A model generated the notes under the pieces. The model did no database searches and was not told where the DNA came from. It was given only the letters and a program-made list of their open reading frames with translations. Below, one piece after another: positions 1 to 39,181 of a stretch of DNA of 43,857 nucleotides. Numbering within the stretch: the first letter of the stretch is position 1; each line of letters starts with the position of its first letter. Source of the stretch: Promethearchaeota archaeon (GTDB lineage: Archaea > Asgardarchaeota > Lokiarchaeia > Sigyniarchaeales > SOKP01); assembly GCA_004524535.1 (NCBI GenBank), contig SDNY01000016.1:1-43857 (forward strand), written 5' to 3'. Both the position numbers and the translations under genes were made by a program.

Positions 1-2183
1 TCTCCCAATGGAATTAACTTCGCTTCTACAATATGACCTCCCACACCATTATATTCTTCAGGTGTTCGGACATCTATCAAAACCGCTGGTTTGTCTTCTG
101 AATTAAGTCTTTCATATAACTCCTCTACTGTTATGTCTGAAATGGGAGGTGCCTCTAGAGGTCTTAATTCTTTTCTTGTTTTTTTCTTGGCTTTAATAGG
201 TGCGCTAATCTCATCAACAGAAAGCTCTCCTTTTTGAAGGATTGCGACCATTTTTCCTTCTTCTTTACCTAAATATAATAATTCGACCGCCTCAGTAAGC
301 TTAGCATAAGCTTCTACACTTGATTTAAAACTAGGATCAGTAGCATAAATCTTTAATTTTTTATTTTCAGGAAGAGTTTCTAAAGATTTTATTAAAGCGT
401 TTAAGGGACCAGGGCAGGATAATCCACATGCATCTATAACTACATAATTATCATCTTCCACAGATTTTTCCTTTACAAATTCCTCCATAATTTCACTTGT
501 ACCACCGCAGGCAGCTACAATTTCTTCTGTAGTAGCAGAGGCAATTTCGTAAGTTTTAAATCCTCCCGTCAATTCATATATTTCTTTATACCCCCGTTGT
601 AGCAATATTCGAGTAGCTAGATAGCTCCTATAACCCACTTCACAAAATGTTATTATAGGCTTTCCTTTTGGAATCTCATTTAATCGGTTTCTTAGGGCTT
701 CTAAGGGGATATTTATAGCTCCTTCAATAGTCCTTGATTTAAATTCTTCAGGAGTTCTAACATCTAGTATGATATTATCTTCTCCTTTAAGCTTATCTAT
801 ATCATGCCAGTGCCAAATAGGCATATCATTTTTCAAGTAATTGGCTGCGATGAAACCTGCCATATTTACCGGATCTTTAGCAGAACCATAGGGAGGAGCA
901 TAAGTTAATTCTAATTCTTCTAAATCAAACACGGTACCTCCCATTTTAATGATTGTTGAAATAACATCAATTCTTTTTTCACTTCCAGAACCGCCTACAA
1001 TCTGAGCTCCTAAAACTTTTCCCGAGGGGTCTTCGAATAATAATTTAAATGCCATTGGAACTGCTCCAGGATAATACCCTGCGTGATTATTAGGATGTAA
1101 ATATATTTTTTCATAATTTAAATCCGTATTTTTTAATTGTTTTTCCGTTAGACCAACTGTAGCTACGGTAATATCAAAAACCTTTACAACTGAAGCCCCT
1201 AAAAATCCTTTATATTGAGATTTTCTTCCTGCTATGTTCTCTGCTGCAATCCTACCCTGTTTATTAGCTGGCCCCGCTAATGCCATTGATATTGGCTTTT
1301 TAGTTTGATAATGTAAGAATTGAATAGCATCACCAACCGCATAAATATTTGGATCTGAGGTTAACATATTCCCATTAACAACGATATGTCCTCGTTCTCC
1401 TAATTCAAGACCCGCCTCTTTTGCCAATGTATTTTCTGGTCGAATTCCTACTGACATTATTATTAAATCTGTATCGATCGTACGTCCATTTTTAGTCTTT
1501 ACATTTATAATTCCATCTGGATCTCGCTCAAAAGAATCCACAGGGTCCTCTAACACTAAACAAACTCCATTCAAGATTAATTCTTGATGGATAAATTGAG
1601 CCATCTCCCTATCTATGGGCGGCATTACTTGATCGAGCATCTCTACAATTTTTACCTTAATGCCTTTTTTAACTAAATTCTCAACCATCTCCAATCCAAT
1701 AAATCCTCCTCCCACAACAACTGCTTTTTTAATTTGAGAATTATCGACAAATTTTCGAATTTTAACGGCATCTGGAATTGTCCATAGTTGATAATATGGT
1801 ACTTCTTCAAGACCCGGAAAAGGAGGAAGTATCGGAGTTGAACCTGTCGCTAATATAAGATAATTATATTCTAAATCATATTCATCTTGATCCTCTAAAT
1901 TTCTCACTTTAACAGTTTTATTCTTTCGATCTATTGAACTTACTTCGTTATTTACTCTCACATCTATATTAAATCTATCAAAAAATATCTGAGGAGGAAC
2001 TAATTCTAAGGAACTTCGATCTTTTATCACATTGCCCACATAATATGGTAATCCACAATTGGCAAAAGATACATACGGACCACGATCAAGCATAATTATT
2101 TCGATATTTTCTTTAAGGCGTCTTAATCGAGCAGCAGCGGATGCTCCACCCGCAACACCACCAATAATCACTACTCTTTCCAT
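1..2183 (-). CDS. CoA-disulfide reductase / NADH oxidase-like flavoprotein fused to rhodanese-TusA-rhodanese (partial, runs off left edge)
   Basis: The reading frame is open from the ATG at 2183 to the window edge, about 727 codons, with no stop. Residues 1-450 form an FAD/NAD(P) pyridine-nucleotide disulfide oxidoreductase: the N-terminal dinucleotide motif is VVIIGGVAGGASAA, and SFANCGLPYY places a cysteine at residue 43, as in coenzyme A-disulfide reductases. A second GGGFIGLE nucleotide motif and a YAVGDAIQ FAD motif follow. Next come a rhodanese domain with active loop CEVGYRS (about residue 513), a TusA/SirA-like domain with CGLSCPGP (about 586), and a second rhodanese starting near LIDVRTPEEY (about 701) that is cut by the window. 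Known CoADR-rhodanese proteins reduce CoA or protein persulfides. The added TusA suggests internal persulfide transfer. It lies 79 bases downstream of iscU, probably in the same operon. The C-terminus is not seen. Confidence 0.9.
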   Translation of the reverse strand, partial: MERVVIIGGVAGGASAAARLRRLKENIEIIMLDRGPYVSFANCGLPYYVGNVIKDRSSLELVPPQIFFDRFNIDVRVNNEVSSIDRKNKTVKVRNLEDQDEYDLEYNYLILATGSTPILPPFPGLEEVPYYQLWTIPDAVKIRKFVDNSQIKKAVVVGGGFIGLEMVENLVKKGIKVKIVEMLDQVMPPIDREMAQFIHQELILNGVCLVLEDPVDSFERDPDGIINVKTKNGRTIDTDLIIMSVGIRPENTLAKEAGLELGERGHIVVNGNMLTSDPNIYAVGDAIQFLHYQTKKPISMALAGPANKQGRIAAENIAGRKSQYKGFLGASVVKVFDITVATVGLTEKQLKNTDLNYEKIYLHPNNHAGYYPGAVPMAFKLLFEDPSGKVLGAQIVGGSGSEKRIDVISTIIKMGGTVFDLEELELTYAPPYGSAKDPVNMAGFIAANYLKNDMPIWHWHDIDKLKGEDNIILDVRTPEEFKSRTIEGAINIPLEALRNRLNEIPKGKPIITFCEVGYRSYLATRILLQRGYKEIYELTGGFKTYEIASATTEEIVAACGGTSEIMEEFVKEKSVEDDNYVVIDACGLSCPGPLNALIKSLETLPENKKLKIYATDPSFKSSVEAYAKLTEAVELLYLGKEEGKMVAILQKGELSVDEISAPIKAKKKTRKELRPLEAPPISDITVEELYERLNSEDKPAVLIDVRTPEEYNGVGGHIVEAKLIPLG

Positions 2184-2262: not shown

Positions 2263-3054
2263 CTAATCAAGAATTATTACTACGTCTACAAATAACTCAT
2301 ACTGCTCGTCCTCATCAAAGTCATGAATAACCACTTTTTCAACTTCGTCAAGTTCTCCTTTAATTTCAATTACTTCAGATTGATATAAGATCTTAACATC
2401 AGAACGCTCAAGTTTTTTCCGTATTTCTACCCTACCTGGTGTAGATTTAGCAGAAGTAACTAGTATAACTCTACCCGTATATTCAGTCAATTTTAAAGCT
2501 AACTCTAAAGATTCATCTCCTGTATCGGAGACTATAATTCTTTTATCTCTTAATTGTTCTAAATCATCAACTTTTTTATATACACCTTTACCTAGAAATT
2601 CTTCTACTCCAAGTATAACTCTAACTTCTAACTGGCAGGATGTTACTACCTCTATTTCTGGTTTTGAACCCGTGCGGTAATTATCTATAGCAGCCTGTAA
2701 TGCATCTGCCGCTAAGTTCGAGCAATGCATTTTAATAGGGGGCAAGCCATCTAATTCGTCAGCTACATCACCTCTAGATATCTTATATGCCTCGTCAAGT
2801 GTCATACCTTTAGCCATTTCAGTTATCATTGAGGATGTTGAAACGGCTGAGCCACAACCAAACGTTTTAAATTTTATATCAGTAATAATTTCTTCTCCTT
2901 CTTTGTTTTTTCCCACTTTAATGTAGATCCACATTAGATCTCCACATACAGGATTACCAACCTTACCAACTCCGTCAGCATCTTCTATTTCGCCAACATT
3001 TCTTGGGTTCCTAAAGTGATCCATAACTTTTTCAGTATATTTATGCACACTCAT
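2263..3054 (-). CDS. iscU: IscU/NifU-type Fe-S scaffold fused to a thioredoxin-reductase-like half domain
   Basis: Residues 1-128 are a standard IscU scaffold. The three cluster-binding cysteines are present (C37 in GNPVCGD, C67 in FGCGSA, C111 after H110), as is D39 next to the first. IscU proteins are usually 125-150 residues; this one is 263. Residues about 165-263 resemble the NAD(P)-binding half of thioredoxin reductase (a RIIVSDTGDESLELALKL strand-helix, then RVILVTS, a nitrite-reductase-like VKILYQSEVIEIKGE stretch, and a YELFVDVVII ending). They lack the usual GxGxxG and stop where the FAD-contacting end would follow. The ATG is the first codon after the iscS stop (no spacer), so the two are co-translated. 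The role is assembly of Fe-S clusters with the neighbouring desulfurase homologue; the role of the extension is unknown. Confidence 0.9.
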   Translation of the reverse strand: MSVHKYTEKVMDHFRNPRNVGEIEDADGVGKVGNPVCGDLMWIYIKVGKNKEGEEIITDIKFKTFGCGSAVSTSSMITEMAKGMTLDEAYKISRGDVADELDGLPPIKMHCSNLAADALQAAIDNYRTGSKPEIEVVTSCQLEVRVILGVEEFLGKGVYKKVDDLEQLRDKRIIVSDTGDESLELALKLTEYTGRVILVTSAKSTPGRVEIRKKLERSDVKILYQSEVIEIKGELDEVEKVVIHDFDEDEQYELFVDVVIILD

Positions 3055-4245
3055 TTAATTTACCTCCTTTTTAATTTGTTCTAAAAATTTTGGTGGTGTA
3101 AGAGGTGATAAAACTCTTAACTTTCTTACTACCTCTGGTAAAACTTCTATAATTTTATCAACATCTTTTTCCTCAGAAAATCTTCCTAATGTCAGTAATA
3201 AGCTACCATGTGCCTCTTCATGCAATAGACCACATGATATTAACGTATGGGAAGGTTCAAGCGTTTTTGAAGAGCAAGCTGATCCAGTGGCTACTTCTAC
3301 ATTTTCATCTTTTAGAGCGAGTAGTAATGACTCACCCTCAATATAATCAAAGCGGAAATTCGCATTATGAGATGTCCGTTCTTCAGGGTGTCCGTTTAAG
3401 TAGGATTTAGGGATCTTTAAAATTCCCTCAATCAGTTTATCTCTTAATTTTTTCAATCTTGCAGCTTCTGTATTAATTTCAGCTTTCATTATTTCTGCTG
3501 CTTTAGCAAAACCCACAATTCCAGGCATGTTTTCTGAACCTGATCGCATCCCCTTCTCTTGGCCACCACCAATAATTATTGGATTCACCCTTACCCCTTT
3601 TTTTAAATATAAAGCACCAATCCCTCTAGGGCCATAAATTTCATTGGAAGAAAGAGTCAATAAATCGAATGGAACCTTTTGCACGTCTATAGGAACAGAA
3701 GATTGCGTAGCTACCGCATCAGAATGGAACCAAACTTTATTTTTTTGGGCGATTTCCGCGATTTCTTCTATAGGTTGTAAAGTTCCAATTTCATTACTAG
3801 CTGTAGATATTGAAATTAAAATGGTTTTATCATTTATCAAACGCTCAAGTTTATTCAGATTAATTCTCCCATATTGATCAACTGAAAGTCGACTTACTTT
3901 AAATCCCTCTCTTTCTAGATATTTTCCTATATTTAAAATTGAGATATGCTCGATTTCTGAGATAATTATATGATTTCCTTTTCTCTTATTTCGTAATGCT
4001 CCTCCAATTATCGCAAGATTATTTGATTCTGTGGCACCAGAAGTAAAGATTATATTGTCTGGGCTTGGAGCATTGATAAATTCTGCTATTGTTTGTCTAG
4101 ACTCTTCTAATTTATTCGTTGCATTATAACCATAAAGATGTAATGAGGATGGATTACCAAATTCTTCTATAAAATATGGTTTCATCGCATCAAATACACG
4201 CGGATCCACTGGTTTAGCTGCTTGATAATCTAAGTAAGCACTCAT
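3055..4245 (-). CDS. iscS: Cysteine desulfurase homologue (IscS/NifS) lacking the PLP lysine
   Basis: This is a 396-residue aminotransferase class V protein of the IscS/NifS family. Family features are present: FTSGATESNN, EIEHISI with H100, D176 and Q181 in SDAVATQ, the substrate-Cys loop ATGSACSS with C324, and SENMPGI. The PLP Schiff-base motif, normally S-x-H-K-x-x-G-P-K-G, reads SSNEIYGPRG here (residues 199-208). The lysine is Glu202 and the preceding histidine is Asn201, which I checked at the codon level. I recall that Archaeoglobus fulgidus IscS also lacks this lysine (Asp in its place) yet still pairs with IscU. This protein may therefore act as a non-canonical or structural partner, or take sulfur from elsewhere. 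Its stop abuts the iscU start, and the dsrE-like gene lies 41 bases upstream. Confidence 0.9.
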   Translation of the reverse strand: MSAYLDYQAAKPVDPRVFDAMKPYFIEEFGNPSSLHLYGYNATNKLEESRQTIAEFINAPSPDNIIFTSGATESNNLAIIGGALRNKRKGNHIIISEIEHISILNIGKYLEREGFKVSRLSVDQYGRINLNKLERLINDKTILISISTASNEIGTLQPIEEIAEIAQKNKVWFHSDAVATQSSVPIDVQKVPFDLLTLSSNEIYGPRGIGALYLKKGVRVNPIIIGGGQEKGMRSGSENMPGIVGFAKAAEIMKAEINTEAARLKKLRDKLIEGILKIPKSYLNGHPEERTSHNANFRFDYIEGESLLLALKDENVEVATGSACSSKTLEPSHTLISCGLLHEEAHGSLLLTLGRFSEEKDVDKIIEVLPEVVRKLRVLSPLTPPKFLEQIKKEVN

Positions 4246-4286: not shown

Positions 4287-4643
4287 TTAAAACCACATGG
4301 TAGCATCAGCTTCTAATGCTAAATCATTTAAAGTTGCTGCTCCAACAATTTTAACACCTGGAATTAACTCAACTTTCTCCCAACCCAACATTCTTTTTGA
4401 GGCTTCACAAACTAAAATTTCTACACCCGCTTCCAAAGTTTTATCAATCATTTCTTTAACAGATGGAAAATCACCCAATTTTATTTTTTCGGCCTCCCCT
4501 GGTTTTAATATTTTTAAACCTGTCCCTAAATAATAAACTATTGCATTAATATCCATAGCTTTTGCTGTCTGTGCCAACACTAGCGGAGAATATTGACGTT
4601 CAGGATCGTCGCTTGTTTGTACATACAATATGCTTTTTCCCAT
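4287..4643 (-). CDS. DsrE-family sulfur-relay protein
   Basis: This is a 118-residue soluble protein of the DsrE/DsrF-like fold. It opens with a beta strand (KSILYVQTSDDPE), followed by AIVYYLGTGLKILKPGEAEKI and VEILVCEASKRMLG. C79 lies where DsrE-type proteins carry their persulfide-accepting cysteine. The C-terminus (GAATLNDLALEADATMWF) matches the family's final helix. DsrE proteins pass persulfide sulfur between carriers such as TusA and acceptor enzymes. It sits between tusA (17 bases upstream) and iscS (41 bases downstream), which supports a sulfur-transfer role in the same transcript. The exact donor and acceptor cannot be read from the sequence. Confidence 0.85.
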   Translation of the reverse strand: MGKSILYVQTSDDPERQYSPLVLAQTAKAMDINAIVYYLGTGLKILKPGEAEKIKLGDFPSVKEMIDKTLEAGVEILVCEASKRMLGWEKVELIPGVKIVGAATLNDLALEADATMWF

Positions 4644-4660
4644 TTCGCATCACTCTTATT

Positions 4661-4930
4661 TTATTTTTTTTTCTTAAAAATAAATGTTAGAATATCGTCC
4701 TCCTTTCTAAAATCTAAAATTTCTGTCTCAGTTCTTTTAGCCCACCTTTGCAAATCTTCTTCAGCAGCAGGATCGTCAGCAATGACTTTAAAACACTGAC
4801 CAATTTCAAGAGTTTCAGATAGATTTCTTACTTCAAATAAAGGTTCTGGACAAAATAATCCAGTTGTATCCAACTCCTCTTCAATTTCAAATTCATTATT
4901 TTCCTTATCACTCAATTTTTTCAACCTCAC
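4661..4930 (-). CDS. tusA: TusA/SirA-family sulfur carrier
   Basis: This small acidic protein has the TusA signature DTTGLFCPEPLFEVRNL; the CPEP cysteine carries the persulfide in this family. The rest (FKVIADDPAAEEDLQRWAK and a closing basic strand) fits the TusA two-layer sandwich. The start is ambiguous. GTG at 4930 gives 89 residues, but that GTGAGG is itself a good Shine-Dalgarno sequence placed 8 bases before a TTG at 4915, which would give 84 residues starting MSDKENN. I think the TTG is at least as likely. It is the first gene of the sulfur/Fe-S operon, and about 240 bases separate it from korB. Confidence 0.87.
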   Translation of the reverse strand: MRLKKLSDKENNEFEIEEELDTTGLFCPEPLFEVRNLSETLEIGQCFKVIADDPAAEEDLQRWAKRTETEILDFRKEDDILTFIFKKKK

Positions 4931-5172: not shown

Positions 5173-6018
5173 TTAAGTTATATATGGTTTTAATAATTGT
5201 AATCTTGTTTCTCTTGATGTTCTATTTCTTACAGGATTCCAATTTCCATACAGTTCTTCATGAAAAGTGGGCTTTTTAATTCTATAAAATATCCCAATGG
5301 GCAGTTTATCTTTTTTTTTAACAATTTTCATCGCCTCATCGAAAGATTTCGGTTCTTTTTCAAGTATTTCAGTATTCTCTCGATAGAATTGCCAAGTGTC
5401 TTTATATGCAACAGCTGGTTGTAAAATTTCTAAGAATGAAAAACCTTTATGCTCAATAGCTTTTACCATAAGATCTGTGAGATGTGCTTGTTTTCCTGGA
5501 AATCCTCTAGCAATGAATGTTGCACCTGCTTCTAGCATAATTGCAAGAGCATTTAAGGGTTCTTCAACACTTCCTTTGGGAGTAGAGGGGCCTTTCCATC
5601 CTTTTTCTGAAAGAGGTGTATATTGACCAGTTGTTAAAGCATAAACACCATTATTATGTAAAATAAGAGTCATATTAAAGTTTCTTTTAGCGGCAAATAT
5701 CGTGTGTGCAAGTCCTTCTCCCATCGCGTTTCCATCACCCGAAAATGTTATAACGTTTAATTCGGGATTCGCAATTTTCATTCCTTGGACCGTTGCAATA
5801 TCTCTCCCATGTAGTGAATATAGACCACTCATATTCAAATAATCAAAAATCTTAGCATGACATCCAATTCCAGCGGAAATTACAATGTATTCTCTATTAA
5901 TCCCTTTTTCCTCTAATTTTACTATCGCTTTTTTAAAAGCACTCAAAATACCAAAATTCCCGCAAATTCGGCGACCTCGGCACCAAGTATTTTCAGCATA
6001 TGTGTCTAAATCATCCAT
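5173..6018 (-). CDS. korB: 2-oxoacid:ferredoxin oxidoreductase beta subunit (KorB/PorB-like)
   Basis: This is the thiamine-diphosphate-binding beta subunit of a CoA-dependent 2-oxoacid:ferredoxin oxidoreductase, which decarboxylates a 2-oxoacid and passes electrons to ferredoxin. It is 281 residues long. GDGNAMGEG (94-102) is the ThDP/Mg motif, and NNGVYALTTGQYTP and GYPGKQ-like segments follow the family. Translation starts one base after the korA stop, behind a perfect AAGGAGGT inside the korA end. The cluster ligands are odd: the usual WCPGCG becomes WCRGRRICG (C13 and C19, three extra residues), C53 is present, and the usual late Cys (QPC or SPC) is Ala in LQPAVAY. The whole protein contains only three cysteines. 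Substrate specificity (2-oxoglutarate, pyruvate or another acid) is not decidable by eye. Confidence 0.9.
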   Translation of the reverse strand: MDDLDTYAENTWCRGRRICGNFGILSAFKKAIVKLEEKGINREYIVISAGIGCHAKIFDYLNMSGLYSLHGRDIATVQGMKIANPELNVITFSGDGNAMGEGLAHTIFAAKRNFNMTLILHNNGVYALTTGQYTPLSEKGWKGPSTPKGSVEEPLNALAIMLEAGATFIARGFPGKQAHLTDLMVKAIEHKGFSFLEILQPAVAYKDTWQFYRENTEILEKEPKSFDEAMKIVKKKDKLPIGIFYRIKKPTFHEELYGNWNPVRNRTSRETRLQLLKPYIT

Positions 6019-6019
6019 T

Positions 6020-7688
6020 TTAAATTACCTCCTTAATTTTTTCAGCTAATTCAATTGGATCAAAAGGACGCCCATCGTACTTATTAATTAGATACTTACT
6101 CTGAATATTTGCCTTTTCTTTTAGAAGTGAGGTGAATTGTCCCATTTTGCTCAATTCTATGGTTATTACGGGCTCATCTTTATATCTTTCCAGTTCCCAT
6201 ACTGGTAAGGGACTAAGATATATTGGCTGGATTATAGTCGCTTCAATGTCTCCATAGTGAAGAGCTTCTAATACGCTCATTGTAGTTGAACCATATGTAA
6301 AAATTAAAGGCCCCCCGGTTCCATATACATTTACCGTTTTTAGTTGCTTTAAAAAATCAATAATATGCATATTTTTTTTATACCTTTTATTATGCATTTT
6401 TGTTATTAGTTCGGGATTTTCAGTAGTTATCCCTAACTCATCATGTTCATAACTCGTCCATTTAATTATTTCTTTAGATGGTGGAAATAGTAATGGAGAA
6501 ATTCCGTCTTCTGTATCAAGATATCTTTTGTAGTCACCACTTTTATGGTATTTAGGTTCTGCCCACTTTATATTCTTCATCTCCATTTCAATTGTCATGC
6601 TACTCTCGGATAGATGTTTTTCAGTTAATATAATCCCTGGAGTTTGAAATTTCCAAACAAGATCAAGTAATTCTGCAGTTAGATAAAATGCCTCTTTTAT
6701 TGAACCAGGACATGCTACAATCCTTAAAAATTCACCATGTCCAGCATTTAAAGCAAAATTCAAATCACCTTGCTCTGTATAGGTTGGTACGCCTGTAGCA
6801 GGACCAGGTCTCATTGATAGGACGCATAATATCGGCGCTTCAGCCATTCCTGCCAATGAGAGCCCTTCAACCATAAGAGCAAATCCCCCTCCACTTGATC
6901 CAACCATAGCTTTAGCTCCTGCAAATGCAGATCCTATAGCCATATTAATAACAGCAATTTCATTCTCTGGATGTATAACTGCCAAACCAAATTTTTCTGC
7001 TTGAGCTGCTAATATGTGTAAAATAGAGGATGCAGGAGTCATGGGATACCCATAATAGGTATCTAAACCTCCTGCAATAGCTCCTAGTGCTATAGATTGA
7101 TTGCCCGTTAGGATAGGTCTTTTTTTATCTCCATTTTGAACTTCAAATTTATTATTTATAGTAGGAAATACAATATCGTAAATAGCATTCGCAAATGAGA
7201 TGTTATCTTCTACAAAACTAGGGTATTCTTTTTTAATTATTTCATTCAAATCATTTTTACTAATTCCTATTGAACACGCTAAAATAGCAACTGCTCCCAC
7301 ACCATATAAAAGATTTTTTGCAGGAAATTTTTTAGCTTCGCTATAAAAAGGGACACCAATTCCTTCAGCATTGTCAATTTCATCAGAATTATAAATAATG
7401 AGACCATTTTTATCAAGCTCATTGGCATGTATCTCATAACTTCTTTTATCTGAATTTACAATTAAACCTGCTTTCATATAATGACTATGTATCTCACTTG
7501 TAGCAGTGCTTATAACTGAGAAATTATGTCCTCCTCTTATTAAACTCATATAGTCATCCATCTGAAATACTTGTCTTCCTCTCTCAATAAAAATTTGAGA
7601 AGCAACAGAACCAGCCTTTTTTACACCTTCTCCAGCTTTACCTCCTACGATAAATGTAAAAACATTTTTTTTTATAGGTTTTCACCAT
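6020..7688 (-). CDS. korA: 2-oxoacid:ferredoxin oxidoreductase, fused gamma-alpha subunit; 5' end frameshifted in a T9/A9 run
   Basis: The open frame from ATG 7561 gives 513 residues, but coding sequence clearly continues upstream. The frame reads FTFIVGGKAGEGVKKAGS and then VASQIFIERGRQVFQ, which is the start of the gamma domain that binds the adenylate/CoA side in this family. No standard start codon lies in that frame. ATG 7688 (MVKTYKK) is one base out of phase, separated by an A9 run (T9 at 7665-7673 on the plus strand). Removing one base joins them into a 555-residue protein. YPMTPASS (about residue 212) is the alpha-subunit signature. A TATA-like box lies 36 bases upstream of ATG 7688. 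Most likely this is a homopolymer sequencing error; a real mutation or slippage is possible. It partners korB directly downstream. Confidence 0.85.
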
Positions 7689-8643: not shown

Positions 8644-9201
8644 ATTTCAATCACTAATTTTTTAAAAAGATGCAAAACTAATAAATTTTAATCTTTGAGA
8701 CAGTTTATATTTATTAAGTACAAGATTTTTAAGGATATATTATATTTTTTAATAGACGATTTTAGATTTTCAATTAGGATTTATTTTAATGGTGTTTTTT
8801 ATGTCTAAAAGTAAAGAAAAAGCGATTCCTATAGGAAACGCAATTGAAAGTATTAATATTTCAAAAACTTATATCTCTGGAGAAGTAAAAGTTCAAGCAT
8901 TGAAAAAAATAAATTTTGAAGTAAAAAATGGTGAGAGATTAGTAATTTTAGGTCCTTCAGGATCAGGAAAAACAACATTGTTAAATTTATTAGGGGGTAT
9001 AACAAGTCCTGATGGAAAAAAAGGATCGCTGAATATATTTGGAAAAACTATTCATAGTTATAATCAAAAACAACTTAAAGATTATCGTCACGAAAGGATT
9101 GGTTTTATTTTCCAGTTTTTTAATCTGTTTCCTGCATTAAATGCCTTGGATAATGTAATAATTGGAATAGTTCTTCTTAAAAAAAATTAAAAAGTGATTT
9201 A
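8620..9201 (+). repeat. Left copy of 0.58-kb direct repeat flanking the glycan island
   Basis: This stretch matches 38263-38845 in the same orientation with roughly 35 differences over about 560 columns by hand count (approximate). It covers the first codons of the zinc-ribbon gene, the divergent intergenic region and the first 130 codons of the ABC ATPase gene. Similarity stops abruptly after AAAAAGTGATTTA at 9201. Confidence 0.9.
8801..9190 (+). pseudogene. Truncated ABC transporter ATPase (5' remnant)
   Basis: The first 130 codons match the intact ATPase at 38444 almost residue for residue, including the Walker A loop GPSGSGKTT and the Q-loop FQFFNLFPALNALDNV. The frame then ends at LLKKN because an A run is one base shorter than in the intact gene. 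DNA similarity carries on for another dozen bases and stops, so the signature motif, Walker B and H-loop are missing. It cannot be a working ATPase. The start matching the intact copy is ATG 8801; an in-frame ATG at 8789 also exists. It is a remnant inside the left direct repeat. Confidence 0.9.
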
Positions 9202-27828: not shown

Positions 27829-29607
27829 ATGGGTGGGATTTGTGGATTTAATTGGAACGATAAAGAGTTAATTCATAGAATGGTAAATTCTATCATCCAT
27901 AGAGGGCCTGATGGTACAAATTATTTCATTGGTAATAAAGTATCATTAGGTTATGCTAGGCTCGCTACCATTGATCTATTAAAAAGGAGTGGAGAATTAA
28001 TTCATAATGAAGATAGTACATTATGGATAGCATTGAATGGTGTGATTTATAATTACCATAATATTCGAAAAAACTTGGAACATCTTGGTCATAAATTTTA
28101 TACGAACACTATTGCTGAAACCATATTACACTCATATGAACAGTATGGCTATCGATGCTTAAATACTTTTAATGGACAATTTACATTTTGTATTTATGAT
28201 GTTAATAAAAAAAATCTTTTTTTAGCTCGAGATAAATTTGGAATAAAACCATTATATTATTATTACAAAAATAATCGGTTCATCTTTGGCTCTGAAATAA
28301 AAGCTATTCTCCAATATGATTTAGAAAAGAAAATCAAGAAAGAAGCTTTAAGAGAATACTTTACTTACAGATTCACAATTGCTCCAAATACGATATTTGA
28401 AGATATTTATAAATTAAAACCCTCTCATTATATAATTCTAAATTTGGAAACAAATGAGATAACTTTGAAGAGTTATTTTAGGCTGGATATTGATTTAAAG
28501 ATGTCTATACCTATGAAAGAAATCGCATTTATAACTTTTAAACTATTGAACCAATCTGTAAAGCTAAGAATGACTGCTGATGTACCCATTTGCACTTTTT
28601 TATCTGGAGGTATAGACTCCAGTATAGTAACAGGTCTTGCGTCTCAATATAATAAAAATCTAAATACATTTTCAGTGGGATTTGAAAATTCTAATGAATT
28701 AAATTATGCAAAACTAGTATCTGATTACTTCAATACAACCCACCATGAATATATACTAACTAATGATGACGTAATTAAAGAATTTGATAAAATGATATTT
28801 CATATAGATGAGCCAATAGGAGACGCTGCTTTTTTACCAGTCTTATTTCTTTCTAAACAGATGAGTAAAAAATTTAAAATTGCATTAACCGGAGATGCTG
28901 GAGATGAAGTATTTGGAGGGTATGATAAATATAAGATGTTCTATTATGGACGATTTATCTCAAAATTCATTCCAAAAATCAAAATAAATCAAGAAATAAT
29001 AAGGAGACTATCGAAATTATCTGAATTAAGAGATATTGACGCTTATATAGAGACAATACGAGTATTTTCTGATGAGGATTTGAGTAAATTGCATATAGAA
29101 CCCAGAAAAACCTATAAATATTGGATAGAAAATTTAAGAACAATGCAAAAAATGCAATTTTATGATTTAAATACTTCGGTTACTGAAGATTTCAATATGA
29201 AATCTGATAAAATGAGTATGGCTTTTGGTGTTGAACAGCGATTTCCTTTTGCAGATGAAAGAATAATTAAGTTTGCGTTAAGTTTACCCCTGAAATTGAA
29301 ACTCCGCTTTTGGAATGAAAAATTTTTGTTAAAAAAATCTTTCTCCACATTTTTGCCTAAAACAATAGTTAAGAGAAGAAAAAGAGGATTTAATACTCCT
29401 ATGGATGACTGGTTTAAAACAATTCTAAAAGAGCGTTTTATAAATTTACTGACTAATAAATCTCATAAATTATATAACAAAGAACATGCAATAACACTTT
29501 TTAAGAGATTAATAAAAAGTAGTTCAAATTATAAAAGAAATTTTCTTTTAAGCCAAAAGCTTTGGACAATTTTTGTTTTTGAAGAATGGTATAATCAAGT
29601 GTTCTAA
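27829..29607 (+). CDS. Asparagine synthetase-like protein with inactivated glutaminase site (AsnB paralogue 1)
   Basis: A 592-residue two-domain protein: class II glutaminase (1-210) plus ATP-dependent amidotransferase (230-592). The N-terminus is MGGICGF, while active enzymes have MCGICGF, so the catalytic nucleophile Cys2 is Gly. Other glutamine-pocket positions are also changed relative to the tandem copy: NGEIYN is NGVIYN (E72V), TDTE is TIAE (D95I), and GHTRL is GYARL. The synthetase domain keeps the PP-loop SGGIDSS, GDAGDEVFGGY and the FNMKSDKMSMAFGVEQRFPF region. It might use free ammonia, depend on the neighbour's glutaminase, or amidate/aminate a sugar acid. It is tandem with the intact copy. 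Confidence 0.9.
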   Translation: MGGICGFNWNDKELIHRMVNSIIHRGPDGTNYFIGNKVSLGYARLATIDLLKRSGELIHNEDSTLWIALNGVIYNYHNIRKNLEHLGHKFYTNTIAETILHSYEQYGYRCLNTFNGQFTFCIYDVNKKNLFLARDKFGIKPLYYYYKNNRFIFGSEIKAILQYDLEKKIKKEALREYFTYRFTIAPNTIFEDIYKLKPSHYIILNLETNEITLKSYFRLDIDLKMSIPMKEIAFITFKLLNQSVKLRMTADVPICTFLSGGIDSSIVTGLASQYNKNLNTFSVGFENSNELNYAKLVSDYFNTTHHEYILTNDDVIKEFDKMIFHIDEPIGDAAFLPVLFLSKQMSKKFKIALTGDAGDEVFGGYDKYKMFYYGRFISKFIPKIKINQEIIRRLSKLSELRDIDAYIETIRVFSDEDLSKLHIEPRKTYKYWIENLRTMQKMQFYDLNTSVTEDFNMKSDKMSMAFGVEQRFPFADERIIKFALSLPLKLKLRFWNEKFLLKKSFSTFLPKTIVKRRKRGFNTPMDDWFKTILKERFINLLTNKSHKLYNKEHAITLFKRLIKSSSNYKRNFLLSQKLWTIFVFEEWYNQVF

Positions 29608-29739: not shown

Positions 29740-31521
29740 ATGTGCGGAATTTGTGGTTTTAACTGGAACGATAAGAACCTTGTTGGTAAAATGATTCATA
29801 CACTTAAACATAGAGGTCCAGATGATTCGGGAAACTACTTGGATAATGAGGTTTCTCTAGGTCACACCAGATTAGCGATAATTGATCTGTCTGCTAAAGG
29901 AAAACAACCAATTCATAATGAAGATAATTCAATTTGGATAATATTTAATGGAGAGATTTATAATTATCAAGAAATTAAAAAAAGATTATTAAAAATGAAT
30001 CATAACTTCTACACGAATACTGATACAGAAGTTATTATACATGCGTATGAGCAATTTGGTACTGAGTGTTTAAACCAATTTAATGGTCAATTTGCATTTT
30101 GTATTTATGATTCAAATAAAAAATCTCTATTTTTAGCTAGGGATCGTTTTGGAATAAAACCCTTATATTATTTTTTTAAAAATAACTCTTTCATCTTTGC
30201 TTCCGAAATAAAATCTATTCTTCAGTACGATTTTAAGAAGAGTATAAATAAAAAGGCTTTACGGGAATACTTAACTTTTAGATTCACTATTGCACCAAAT
30301 TCAATATTTAACAATGTTTATAAACTCTATCCCTCCAGTTATCTTATCTATGATTTGGACAAAAATTCTTTGAAAATTAATAAATATTATACCCAAGAAA
30401 TCCAAAGCTCTTATAAATATGATATAAACACCCTAACCTCAACCATATATAAATTAATTAATGATTCTGTAAGATTAAGAATGATCGCTGATGTTCCTGT
30501 CTGTAGTTTTCTTTCTGGTGGAATAGATTCAAGTATTATTACATATATGGCAACCAAATATAATCCAAATATAAACACCTACTCGGTTGGGTTTGAAAAC
30601 TTTAGTGAACTAAAATTCGCAAAAATAGTTTCTGACTATTTTAAAACAAATCATCATGAATTAATAATAAAGAAGGAAGATGTTTTAGGAAATATTGAGA
30701 AGATGATATATCACATGGATGAACCTATAGGAGATGCAGCATTTTTTCCTACACTTCTTATTTCAGAGTTAGTTAGTAGAGATTACAAAGTAGTATTAGC
30801 AGGAGAAGGTTCAGATGAGATATTTGGAGGATATGATAAATACAAATTATTAAATTATGGGAAGAAAATATCTTGGTTTTTACCAAAAGTAAGATTTCAA
30901 AATGACATTCTCCAAAGGATTGGTAAATTCTCAAAATTAGATGACTATCAAGGATATATTGAAGTTATTCGTGCTTTTACTGATGAAGAATTAAAACTAT
31001 TAAAACTCTCTTTCATCCAAATGAAGCAATTTCAGAAAAGAGGGTTAAATAGATTCCAAAAAATGCAATTTATTGATTTAAACACTTCTTTATGTGAAGA
31101 TTTTTTTATGAAAGCGGATAAGATGAGTTCTGCTTTTGGACTTGAAGAAAGAGTCCCGTTCATGGATCATAGACTTGTTTCATTTGCTTTAAATTTGCCA
31201 ACAAAACTCAAGTTGCGTTTTTGGAATGAAAAATTTATTTTAAAACAGACTTTTTCAAATATCTTACCGAAAGTTATAATTAAGAGGAGAAAAACAGGAT
31301 ATAATACACCAATGGATTTGTGGTTAAAAACTGTTATAAAAGACAGATTTTTGGAAATATTCCATCAAAACCGCCATAATCTTTACAAGAAGGATTATAT
31401 CATTGATTTATATAATAGACTTTTAAAAACAGGATCAAATTATAAACAAAACTTTTATTTGGCACAGAAATTATGGTCTATATATGTTTTCGAAGAATGG
31501 TTTAACCAATATATGAATTAG
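29740..31521 (+). CDS. asnB: Glutamine-hydrolysing asparagine synthetase (AsnB paralogue 2)
   Basis: A 593-residue enzyme with an intact N-terminal nucleophile (MCGICGF), R25-G26-P27 in HRGPDD, GHTRLAI, NGEIYNY and TDTEVI forming the glutaminase pocket. The AMP-binding PP-loop SGGIDSS and GEGSDEIFGGYDKY follow, with KADKMSSAFGLEERVPFMD. It converts aspartate (or a related acid) to an amide using glutamine nitrogen. In glycan clusters such AsnB/WbpS-type homologues often amidate uronic acids; which applies here is inference. It begins 132 bases after the degraded paralogue, with which it shares most of its sequence, so the pair is a tandem duplication. Confidence 0.93.
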   Translation: MCGICGFNWNDKNLVGKMIHTLKHRGPDDSGNYLDNEVSLGHTRLAIIDLSAKGKQPIHNEDNSIWIIFNGEIYNYQEIKKRLLKMNHNFYTNTDTEVIIHAYEQFGTECLNQFNGQFAFCIYDSNKKSLFLARDRFGIKPLYYFFKNNSFIFASEIKSILQYDFKKSINKKALREYLTFRFTIAPNSIFNNVYKLYPSSYLIYDLDKNSLKINKYYTQEIQSSYKYDINTLTSTIYKLINDSVRLRMIADVPVCSFLSGGIDSSIITYMATKYNPNINTYSVGFENFSELKFAKIVSDYFKTNHHELIIKKEDVLGNIEKMIYHMDEPIGDAAFFPTLLISELVSRDYKVVLAGEGSDEIFGGYDKYKLLNYGKKISWFLPKVRFQNDILQRIGKFSKLDDYQGYIEVIRAFTDEELKLLKLSFIQMKQFQKRGLNRFQKMQFIDLNTSLCEDFFMKADKMSSAFGLEERVPFMDHRLVSFALNLPTKLKLRFWNEKFILKQTFSNILPKVIIKRRKTGYNTPMDLWLKTVIKDRFLEIFHQNRHNLYKKDYIIDLYNRLLKTGSNYKQNFYLAQKLWSIYVFEEWFNQYMN

Positions 31522-38262: not shown

Positions 38263-38845
38263 AATCACTTTTTCTAATTCTGCCATTTTTCAATCATTCC
38301 TTTTTTAAAAAGATGTAAAATTAATAAATTTTAATCTTTGAGACAGTTTATTCCTATTAAGTACAAGATTTTTAGGGCATATTACATTTTTTAATAGATG
38401 ATTTTAGATTTTCAATTAGGATTTAATTTAATGATGTTTTTTTATGTCTAAAAGTAAAGAAAATGCGATTCCTATAGGAAACGCAATTAAAAGTATTAAT
38501 ATTTCAAAAACTTATATCTCTGGAGAAGTAAAAGTTCAAGCATTGAAAAAAATAAATTTTAAAGTAAAAAATGGTGAGAGATTAGTAATTTTAGGTCCTT
38601 CAGGATCAGGAAAAACAACTTTGTTAAATTTATTGGGGGGTATAACCAATCCTGATAAAAAAAAGGGATCACTGAATATATTTGGAAAAACTATTCATAG
38701 TTATAATCAAAAACAACTTACAGATTATCGTCGTGAAAGGATTGGTTTTATTTTCCAGTTTTTTAATCTATTTCCTGCATTAAATGCCTTAGATAATGTG
38801 ATAATTGGAATAGATCTTCTTAAAAAAAAATTAAAAAGCGATTTA
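38263..38845 (+). repeat. Right copy of 0.58-kb direct repeat flanking the glycan island
   Basis: Matches 8620-9201 in direct orientation. It starts inside what would be the zinc-ribbon gene: the minus strand still reads MAELEKV before diverging, against MAEFEKV in the intact gene. It runs through the divergent promoter into the intact ATPase. The rest of the zinc-ribbon gene is absent here. Confidence 0.9.
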
Positions 38846-39181
38846 CATTCTCTTGAAATTGCGACTGATTATTTGGAGAAAGTTGGATTAGCTGATAGAA
38901 TATTTCATTATCCATCTCAGTTAAGTGGAGGTGAACAACAACGAGTAGCGATTGCACGAGCGCTAGCAAAAATACCGTTTGTGGGGAGAAATTTCCTATT
39001 ATTATGTGATGAACCAACTGGAAATTTAGATACCGAAACGAGTGATAAAATATTAGATTTAATAATAAAATTGAATGAAACCGAAGGTATTACCTGTATT
39101 TTGGTTACCCATAATTTGCATATAGCAGAGAAGTTTGCGACATCAATTATTCATTTGAGAGATGGGTTTATCGAAAATTAG
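38444..39181 (+). CDS. ABC transporter ATPase (MacB/LolD-like)
   Basis: A complete 245-residue nucleotide-binding subunit. Walker A is GPSGSGKTT (51-59), the Q-loop is in IFQFFNLFPALNALDNV, the signature is LSGGEQQRVAIARAL (160-174), Walker B is LLLCDEPTGNLD (185-196), and H223 is in VTHNLHIAEKF. The 'NALDNV' and 'EPTGNLD' patterns are those of LolD/MacB/FtsE-type ATPases. Its partner is the FtsX-like permease beginning 15 bases downstream. The exported substrate could be a lipoprotein, peptide or lipid-linked molecule. A 5' remnant of the same gene lies at 8801. Confidence 0.93.
   Translation: MSKSKENAIPIGNAIKSINISKTYISGEVKVQALKKINFKVKNGERLVILGPSGSGKTTLLNLLGGITNPDKKKGSLNIFGKTIHSYNQKQLTDYRRERIGFIFQFFNLFPALNALDNVIIGIDLLKKKLKSDLHSLEIATDYLEKVGLADRIFHYPSQLSGGEQQRVAIARALAKIPFVGRNFLLLCDEPTGNLDTETSDKILDLIIKLNETEGITCILVTHNLHIAEKFATSIIHLRDGFIEN

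Follow-up and report, generated by a model that had tools for sequence, protein, structure and literature searches.

The gene at 3055..4245 of the window (the whole stretch of 43,857 nucleotides analysed, from Promethearchaeota archaeon contig SDNY01000016.1) encodes an IscS homologue without the PLP-binding lysine, which is conserved in a large clade and encoded together with sulfur carriers and an IscU scaffold. The alignments point to a coordinated loss of the desulfurase chemistry with retention of the persulfide loop, and judged by these residues the protein very probably does not perform ordinary cysteine desulfuration. Given that it is strongly conserved, has lost its catalytic residues and lies beside genes for sulfur carriers and a scaffold, its role is probably in sulfur passing or cluster building rather than in cysteine cutting. 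The following features of the window are concerned:

3..2183, minus strand: CoA-disulfide/persulfide-reductase-like flavoprotein fused to rhodanese and TusA domains and one more domain, truncated where the window ends (Pyr_redox_2, Rhodanese, TusA)
2263..3054, minus strand: IscU scaffold with a C-terminal extension resembling the NADPH domain of thioredoxin reductase (PF01592, E 1e-46; weak Pyr_redox)
3055..4245, minus strand: IscS homologue without the lysine, with Glu202 at the PLP-Lys position and Cys324 kept (open reading frame)
3623..3645, minus strand: degenerate Schiff-base motif N201-E202-I-Y-G-P-R-G (sequence and pattern match)
4287..4643, minus strand: DsrE-family sulfur carrier with the conserved CEASKxML cysteine (PF02635 and PF13686; SulfCarrDsrE2 weak; 3mc3, E 3e-13)
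4661..4930, minus strand: TusA sulfur carrier with CPEP motif (PF01206, E 7e-18; E. coli TusA 1dcj/3lvj, E 2e-7)
5173..6018, minus strand: 2-oxoacid:ferredoxin oxidoreductase, beta subunit (PF02775, PF12367)
6020..7561, minus strand: 2-oxoacid:ferredoxin oxidoreductase, gamma-alpha fusion (PF01855, PF01558)

The IscS reading frame comprises 396 amino acids with no internal stops and reads ...LTLSSNEIYGPRGIG... at the motif. A profile search assigns it to PF00266 (E 3e-78) and the nearest solved structure is A. fulgidus IscS (4eb5, E 4e-144). Where desulfurases have SxHKxxGPKG the window protein has SSNEIYGPRG, with GAA as the codon for Glu202 and AAT for Asn201; iscU starts at 3054, right behind the stop codon. 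An earlier note on this DNA had claimed that the glutamate is real and that the gene is not decaying, and both claims hold. The same NEIYGPRG is found in a 98%-identical gene of a second MAG (Lokiarchaeota, Tekir sediment; contig SDNM01000163.1; L039, G003), and dN/dS is 0.10 against this gene and 0.04-0.07 against three other relatives. These ratios show purifying selection on the gene, and a conserved function is near certain.

Residues were compared by alignment to E. coli IscS as the reference. The equivalents of E. coli T76, E77, H104, N155, D180, S203 and C328 are retained (among them T72, H100, D176, S199 and C324 in window numbering), and four others are replaced: Q183 by A179, H205 by N201, K206 by E202 and R354 by L350. 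The earlier statement that the active site is otherwise retained is thus correct for H100, D176 and C324 and fails for two positions, since the PLP-contact Gln is Ala179 and Arg354 is Leu350; the Q181 that had been named as the kept glutamine lies two positions off the PLP-contact Gln. With Gln and Arg gone besides Lys and His, only part of the active site remains. An arginine of the Arg354 type binds the substrate carboxylate in the IscS family, and the one lost at Leu350 would have been this residue. The PLP Lys of SxHKxxGPKG that marks active IscS/NifS proteins is thus replaced by Glu202 (and is found in 0/80 relatives, the best 80 of 398), and the accompanying PLP-contact Gln, pre-Lys His and Arg are A179, N201 and L350. 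The score of 467 bits stays below the 531 of TIGR03402, as it does below every other NCBIfam NifS/IscS equivalog cutoff shown.

Relatives were retrieved by peptide patterns that exclude the Lys site, and the best 80 of 398 were taken; these loci consequently sample the clade nearest to the window gene and not all IscS. Among the best 80 of 398 the Lys position holds Asp in 74, Glu in five, Ala in one and Lys in none. The losses of Lys, His, Gln and Arg extend to all or nearly all of the clade: in the alignment, which comprises the window protein and is again limited to the best 80 of 398, the residue before the Lys position is Asn in 80/80 and the Gln183 position is Ala, Ser or Pro in 80/80 rows that align, and with the window protein added to the 80, Arg354 is lost in 81/81 and Cys328 kept in 81/81. 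All five residues (K, H, Q, R and C) are retained in 22/22 PF00266 paralogues of Lokiarchaeal genomes, of which 20 are IscS-type and two more distant. The single Ala occurs in L100 (SSNAFYGPRG), whose near relative L090 has Asp. Another IscS-like protein, L194 (G055:C3:1358-2437), reads FDAHRIHGPKG, with Lys changed to Arg and the Gln and substrate-side Arg apparently kept.

A quick maximum-likelihood tree unites the Lys-less proteins with A. fulgidus IscS (4eb5) in a single clade, apart from the Lys forms (SH-aLRT 99); the A. fulgidus branch is long. This bears out the comparison with A. fulgidus IscS, which carries Asp, made in the earlier note. The glutamate itself is not special but a repeated Asp-to-Glu swap. 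It recurs among Asp relatives, with four D/E changes on the tree and Asp as the common state, so that a unique change can be rejected and Glu is best seen as a conservative version of an anomaly that was already known. The branch is common in Asgard archaea: phylum-wide, the acidic motif was found in 117 of 228 genomes and the HK motif in 70, by patterns that miss variants such as HKLHGP. Within the window's family, 32 of the 42 genomes that are at least 90% complete have both motifs, six only the acidic one, two only HK and two neither.

At the readable loci (best 80 of 398) TusA lies directly upstream of the Lys-less IscS in 78/78, always with CPxP, and DsrE is found at 47/78, mostly with the CEASKxML cysteine, being absent from about 40%. 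Directly downstream, IscU with its C-terminal extension follows in 75/76 cases (best 80 of 398). In 26/32 Lokiarchaeal loci from the best 80 of 398, a CoADR/rhodanese-type protein lies on the same strand; in the window the corresponding protein (3..2183) matches TIGR03385 with E 3e-147, below that model's cutoff. The arrangement holds across Lokiarchaeota, Thorarchaeota, Helarchaeota, Deltaproteobacteria, Actinomycetota and WOR-3 (best 80 of 398). The loci of Lys-type paralogues in Lokiarchaeal genomes, by comparison, show TusA in 0/19, DsrE in 0/19, the IscU extension in 0/19 and an adjacent IscU in 4/19. The association with TusA and DsrE that the earlier note had anticipated is therefore found, and most Lokiarchaeal loci have the CoADR-rhodanese-TusA protein downstream as well. 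Linkage of the two 2-oxoacid:ferredoxin oxidoreductase genes to the cassette is occasional, seen at few related loci.

The IscU protein has the residues expected of an IscU/NifU-N scaffold (the three ligand cysteines C37, C67 and C111, besides D39 and LPPIK) and scores above the cutoff of TIGR03419. Residues 147-261 match TRX_reduct, in the stretch that forms the NADPH domain in that family. An AlphaFold model gives IscU plus a second domain with a mean pLDDT of 86 and a pTM of 0.50, the latter leaving the arrangement of the domains unsure. Foldseek matches the extension to the thioredoxin reductase 3f8d over 121 columns, with 28% identity and an rmsd of about 1.9 A. Reading the extension by eye, we found none of the thioredoxin reductase motifs CxxC, GxGxxG and HRR. 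Lacking CxxC and the usual NADPH motifs, it looks like a retired enzyme domain too. It is present at nearly all Lys-less loci (best 80 of 398).

The window gene is not the only IscS of its cell, a possibility that is ruled out by a complete, canonical Lys-type IscS (SAHKLYGPKG) on contig C173 of the same genome. The genome further encodes four more NifU_N proteins, of which one lies on C173, as well as a SufBD-like protein whose gene adjoins that of an ABC ATPase. Because of this canonical IscS, the other IscUs and the SufBC-like genes, cell-wide Fe-S assembly need not avoid cysteine, and the earlier proposal that it would proceed without PLP-Lys desulfuration does not hold for the cell as a whole. 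Most Lokiarchaeal genomes have a Lys-type IscS beside the Lys-less one, and a Lys-type IscS or SufS is also present in most bacterial and Thorarchaeal genomes sampled, the Thorarchaeal ones having an intact SufS (SVHKMCGPTG). We re-examined the acidic-only genomes, namely the six of the window's family and the more distant G053 of the same class. Here G140 has a Lys form (HKLHGP), and G150 and G164 a related HK protein; in G016, G141, G146 and G053 no Lys-type IscS or SufS was detected, with incompleteness as a caveat for these MAGs (94-97% complete). In G058 (L173, C79) a SufS-type gene adjoins the Lys-less IscS on one contig, and in G168 (L188, L199) these two types are on separate contigs.

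Proteins of this kind are already known from A. fulgidus and M. acetivorans. A. fulgidus IscS 2 (4eb5, 4eb7, 4hvk; 4r5f is a Lys-containing variant sequence) shares clade and fold with the window protein, has an acidic residue for Lys, Asn for His and Ala for Gln, keeps the loop cysteine and works with an IscU. It differs in having Asp (Asp199) where the window protein has Glu, and its IscU partner is a chain of 135-138 amino acids in the PDB, in which no extension is seen. It is reported to be without desulfurase activity (PMC7585200). A loop cysteine ligating a [2Fe-2S] cluster on IscU has been reported for A. fulgidus only (PMC9769115). The IscS1 of M. acetivorans, likened here by description, is also reported to be without the catalytic Lys and paired with an IscU, and its discussion there mentions no TusA or DsrE partner (PMC7585200). 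The minimal ISC system MIS (MisS-MisU) is likewise a pair of IscS-like and IscU-like proteins without other isc genes; however, a cysteine desulfurase is part of its description (PMC12192291), whereas in the Lys-less branch the catalytic residues are missing and the protein is accompanied by TusA/DsrE and an extended IscU. The same three families also meet in the E. coli complexes IscS-TusA and IscS-IscU (3LVJ, 3LVL), with the loop cysteine and TusA Cys19 and Asp51 kept in the Lys-less system, but the E. coli IscS works as a PLP-Lys enzyme and is the sulfur donor, and its W45 and TusA F58 are replaced in the Lys-less system. Our literature search, mostly without subscription papers, yielded no description of Glu at the Lys position, of Gln and Arg missing throughout the clade, of the link with TusA/DsrE or of the extended IscU, and no biochemistry of the Lys-less clade with TusA or DsrE; judged by titles and abstracts it also yielded no TusA-IscU-DsrE cluster with an inactive IscS. 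As most subscription papers lay outside this search, absence from the literature is no proof of novelty.

Our preferred reading, to which we give about an even chance, is that the retired desulfurase serves as a docking platform that passes sulfur from the carriers to IscU through Cys324. The protein retains the IscS fold, several residues of the PLP pocket and the mobile-loop Cys324, but has lost the Lys, His, Gln and Arg on which aldimine formation and the holding and activation of cysteine depend. Sulfane sulfur from DsrE and TusA would be handed to Cys324, in Lokiarchaea perhaps after being made by the neighbouring CoADR-rhodanese-TusA protein. The loop would then swing the sulfur to the place on the extended IscU where the cluster forms, with Cys324 possibly acting as a transient cluster ligand too, as in A. 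fulgidus. Cutting sulfur from cysteine would fall to the cell's other, Lys-type IscS. Sulfide or persulfide is a reasonable candidate for the donor to the TusA-linked operon. Since sulfur runs from IscS to TusA in E. coli, the flow from TusA to the Lys-less IscS would be a reversal and is hence putative. More tentatively, and with clearly less confidence, the cassette may represent a cysteine-independent, TusA-fed Fe-S assembly line that Asgard archaea have in common with several bacterial phyla; here the inactivated desulfurase would receive sulfane sulfur and the IscS-TusA reaction would run backwards; it is perhaps the main ISC-type route in G016, G141, G146 and G053.

Binding of TusA to the window protein is suggested by the contact known from E. 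coli, where TusA Cys19 and IscS Cys328 come within about 4 A of each other, W45, E49 and D52 of IscS are required for binding and W45 stacks on TusA F58 (PMC2854127). The Cys19 and Asp51 equivalents are kept in 79/79 linked TusA proteins (best 80 of 398). The W45 position is Asp in 71/81 Lys-less IscS and the F58 position Arg in 77/79 TusA (best 80 of 398), a pair that would fit a salt bridge in a re-tuned contact; the window pair is Tyr (IscS) and Arg (TusA) rather than Asp and Arg. Covariation within the set is absent because the TusA Arg is nearly invariant. Basic residues at this position also occur in TusA relatives that are unlinked to a Lys-less IscS, which weakens the argument from this contact.

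A tentative alternative is that the protein acts as in A. fulgidus, as a scaffold only, stabilising IscU and offering Cys324 to ligate a [2Fe-2S] cluster that is made with free sulfide, while TusA and DsrE serve another acceptor or compete for the same surface. This agrees with its placement beside the A. fulgidus protein, which is reported to be inactive and to have Cys321 as a ligand to the cluster on IscU (PMC7585200; PMC9769115). Use of sulfide for Fe-S assembly by M. maripaludis (PMC7585200) makes a sulfide donor plausible in anoxic sediment. Nonetheless, a scaffold alone leaves unexplained why TusA lies immediately upstream in every readable locus of several phyla (78/78, best 80 of 398). 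It is improbable that the acceptor is on the TusA side, i.e. that the complex takes sulfur from the Lys-type IscS paralogue and hands it to TusA, which would supply the thiolation of tRNA or cofactors, IscU being a minor partner. The direction would be that of E. coli (PMC2854127), and the Lys-type donor is at hand in most Lokiarchaeal genomes; however, the tightest downstream coupling is to an IscU with intact ligand cysteines, and the cassette occurs in some genomes with no Lys-type desulfurase detected. Slightly less probable still is a remaining cysteine desulfurase that holds PLP non-covalently and uses another base. T72, H100, D176 and S199 are indeed kept in the PLP pocket and 4EB5 contains PLP despite Asp199 (PMC9769115), but the Gln183, His205 and Arg354 equivalents are gone besides Lys, and the A. 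fulgidus protein is reported inactive (PMC7585200). A pseudogene, an assembly error or a misread codon can be dismissed as having a negligible chance, given the Glu shared with the second MAG (98% identity), the clade-wide acidic residue and the dN/dS of 0.04-0.10.

Minimal ISC systems have been described as a desulfurase plus a scaffold, and here a whole branch has lost the desulfurase residues yet is conserved and tied to sulfur carriers. The source of sulfur in archaeal Fe-S clusters thereby becomes directly testable, and caution is advised against annotating Lys-less IscS genes as cysteine desulfurases.

Two further observations concern other parts of the window. Asparagine synthetase genes stand in tandem at 27829-29607 and 29740-31521 (both plus strand); the second protein starts with MCGICGF and the first with MGGICGF, without the N-terminal glutaminase cysteine. 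In addition, an ABC-transporter ATPase gene at 38444-39181 (plus strand) has a near-copy, in truncated form, at 8789-9190 (plus strand).
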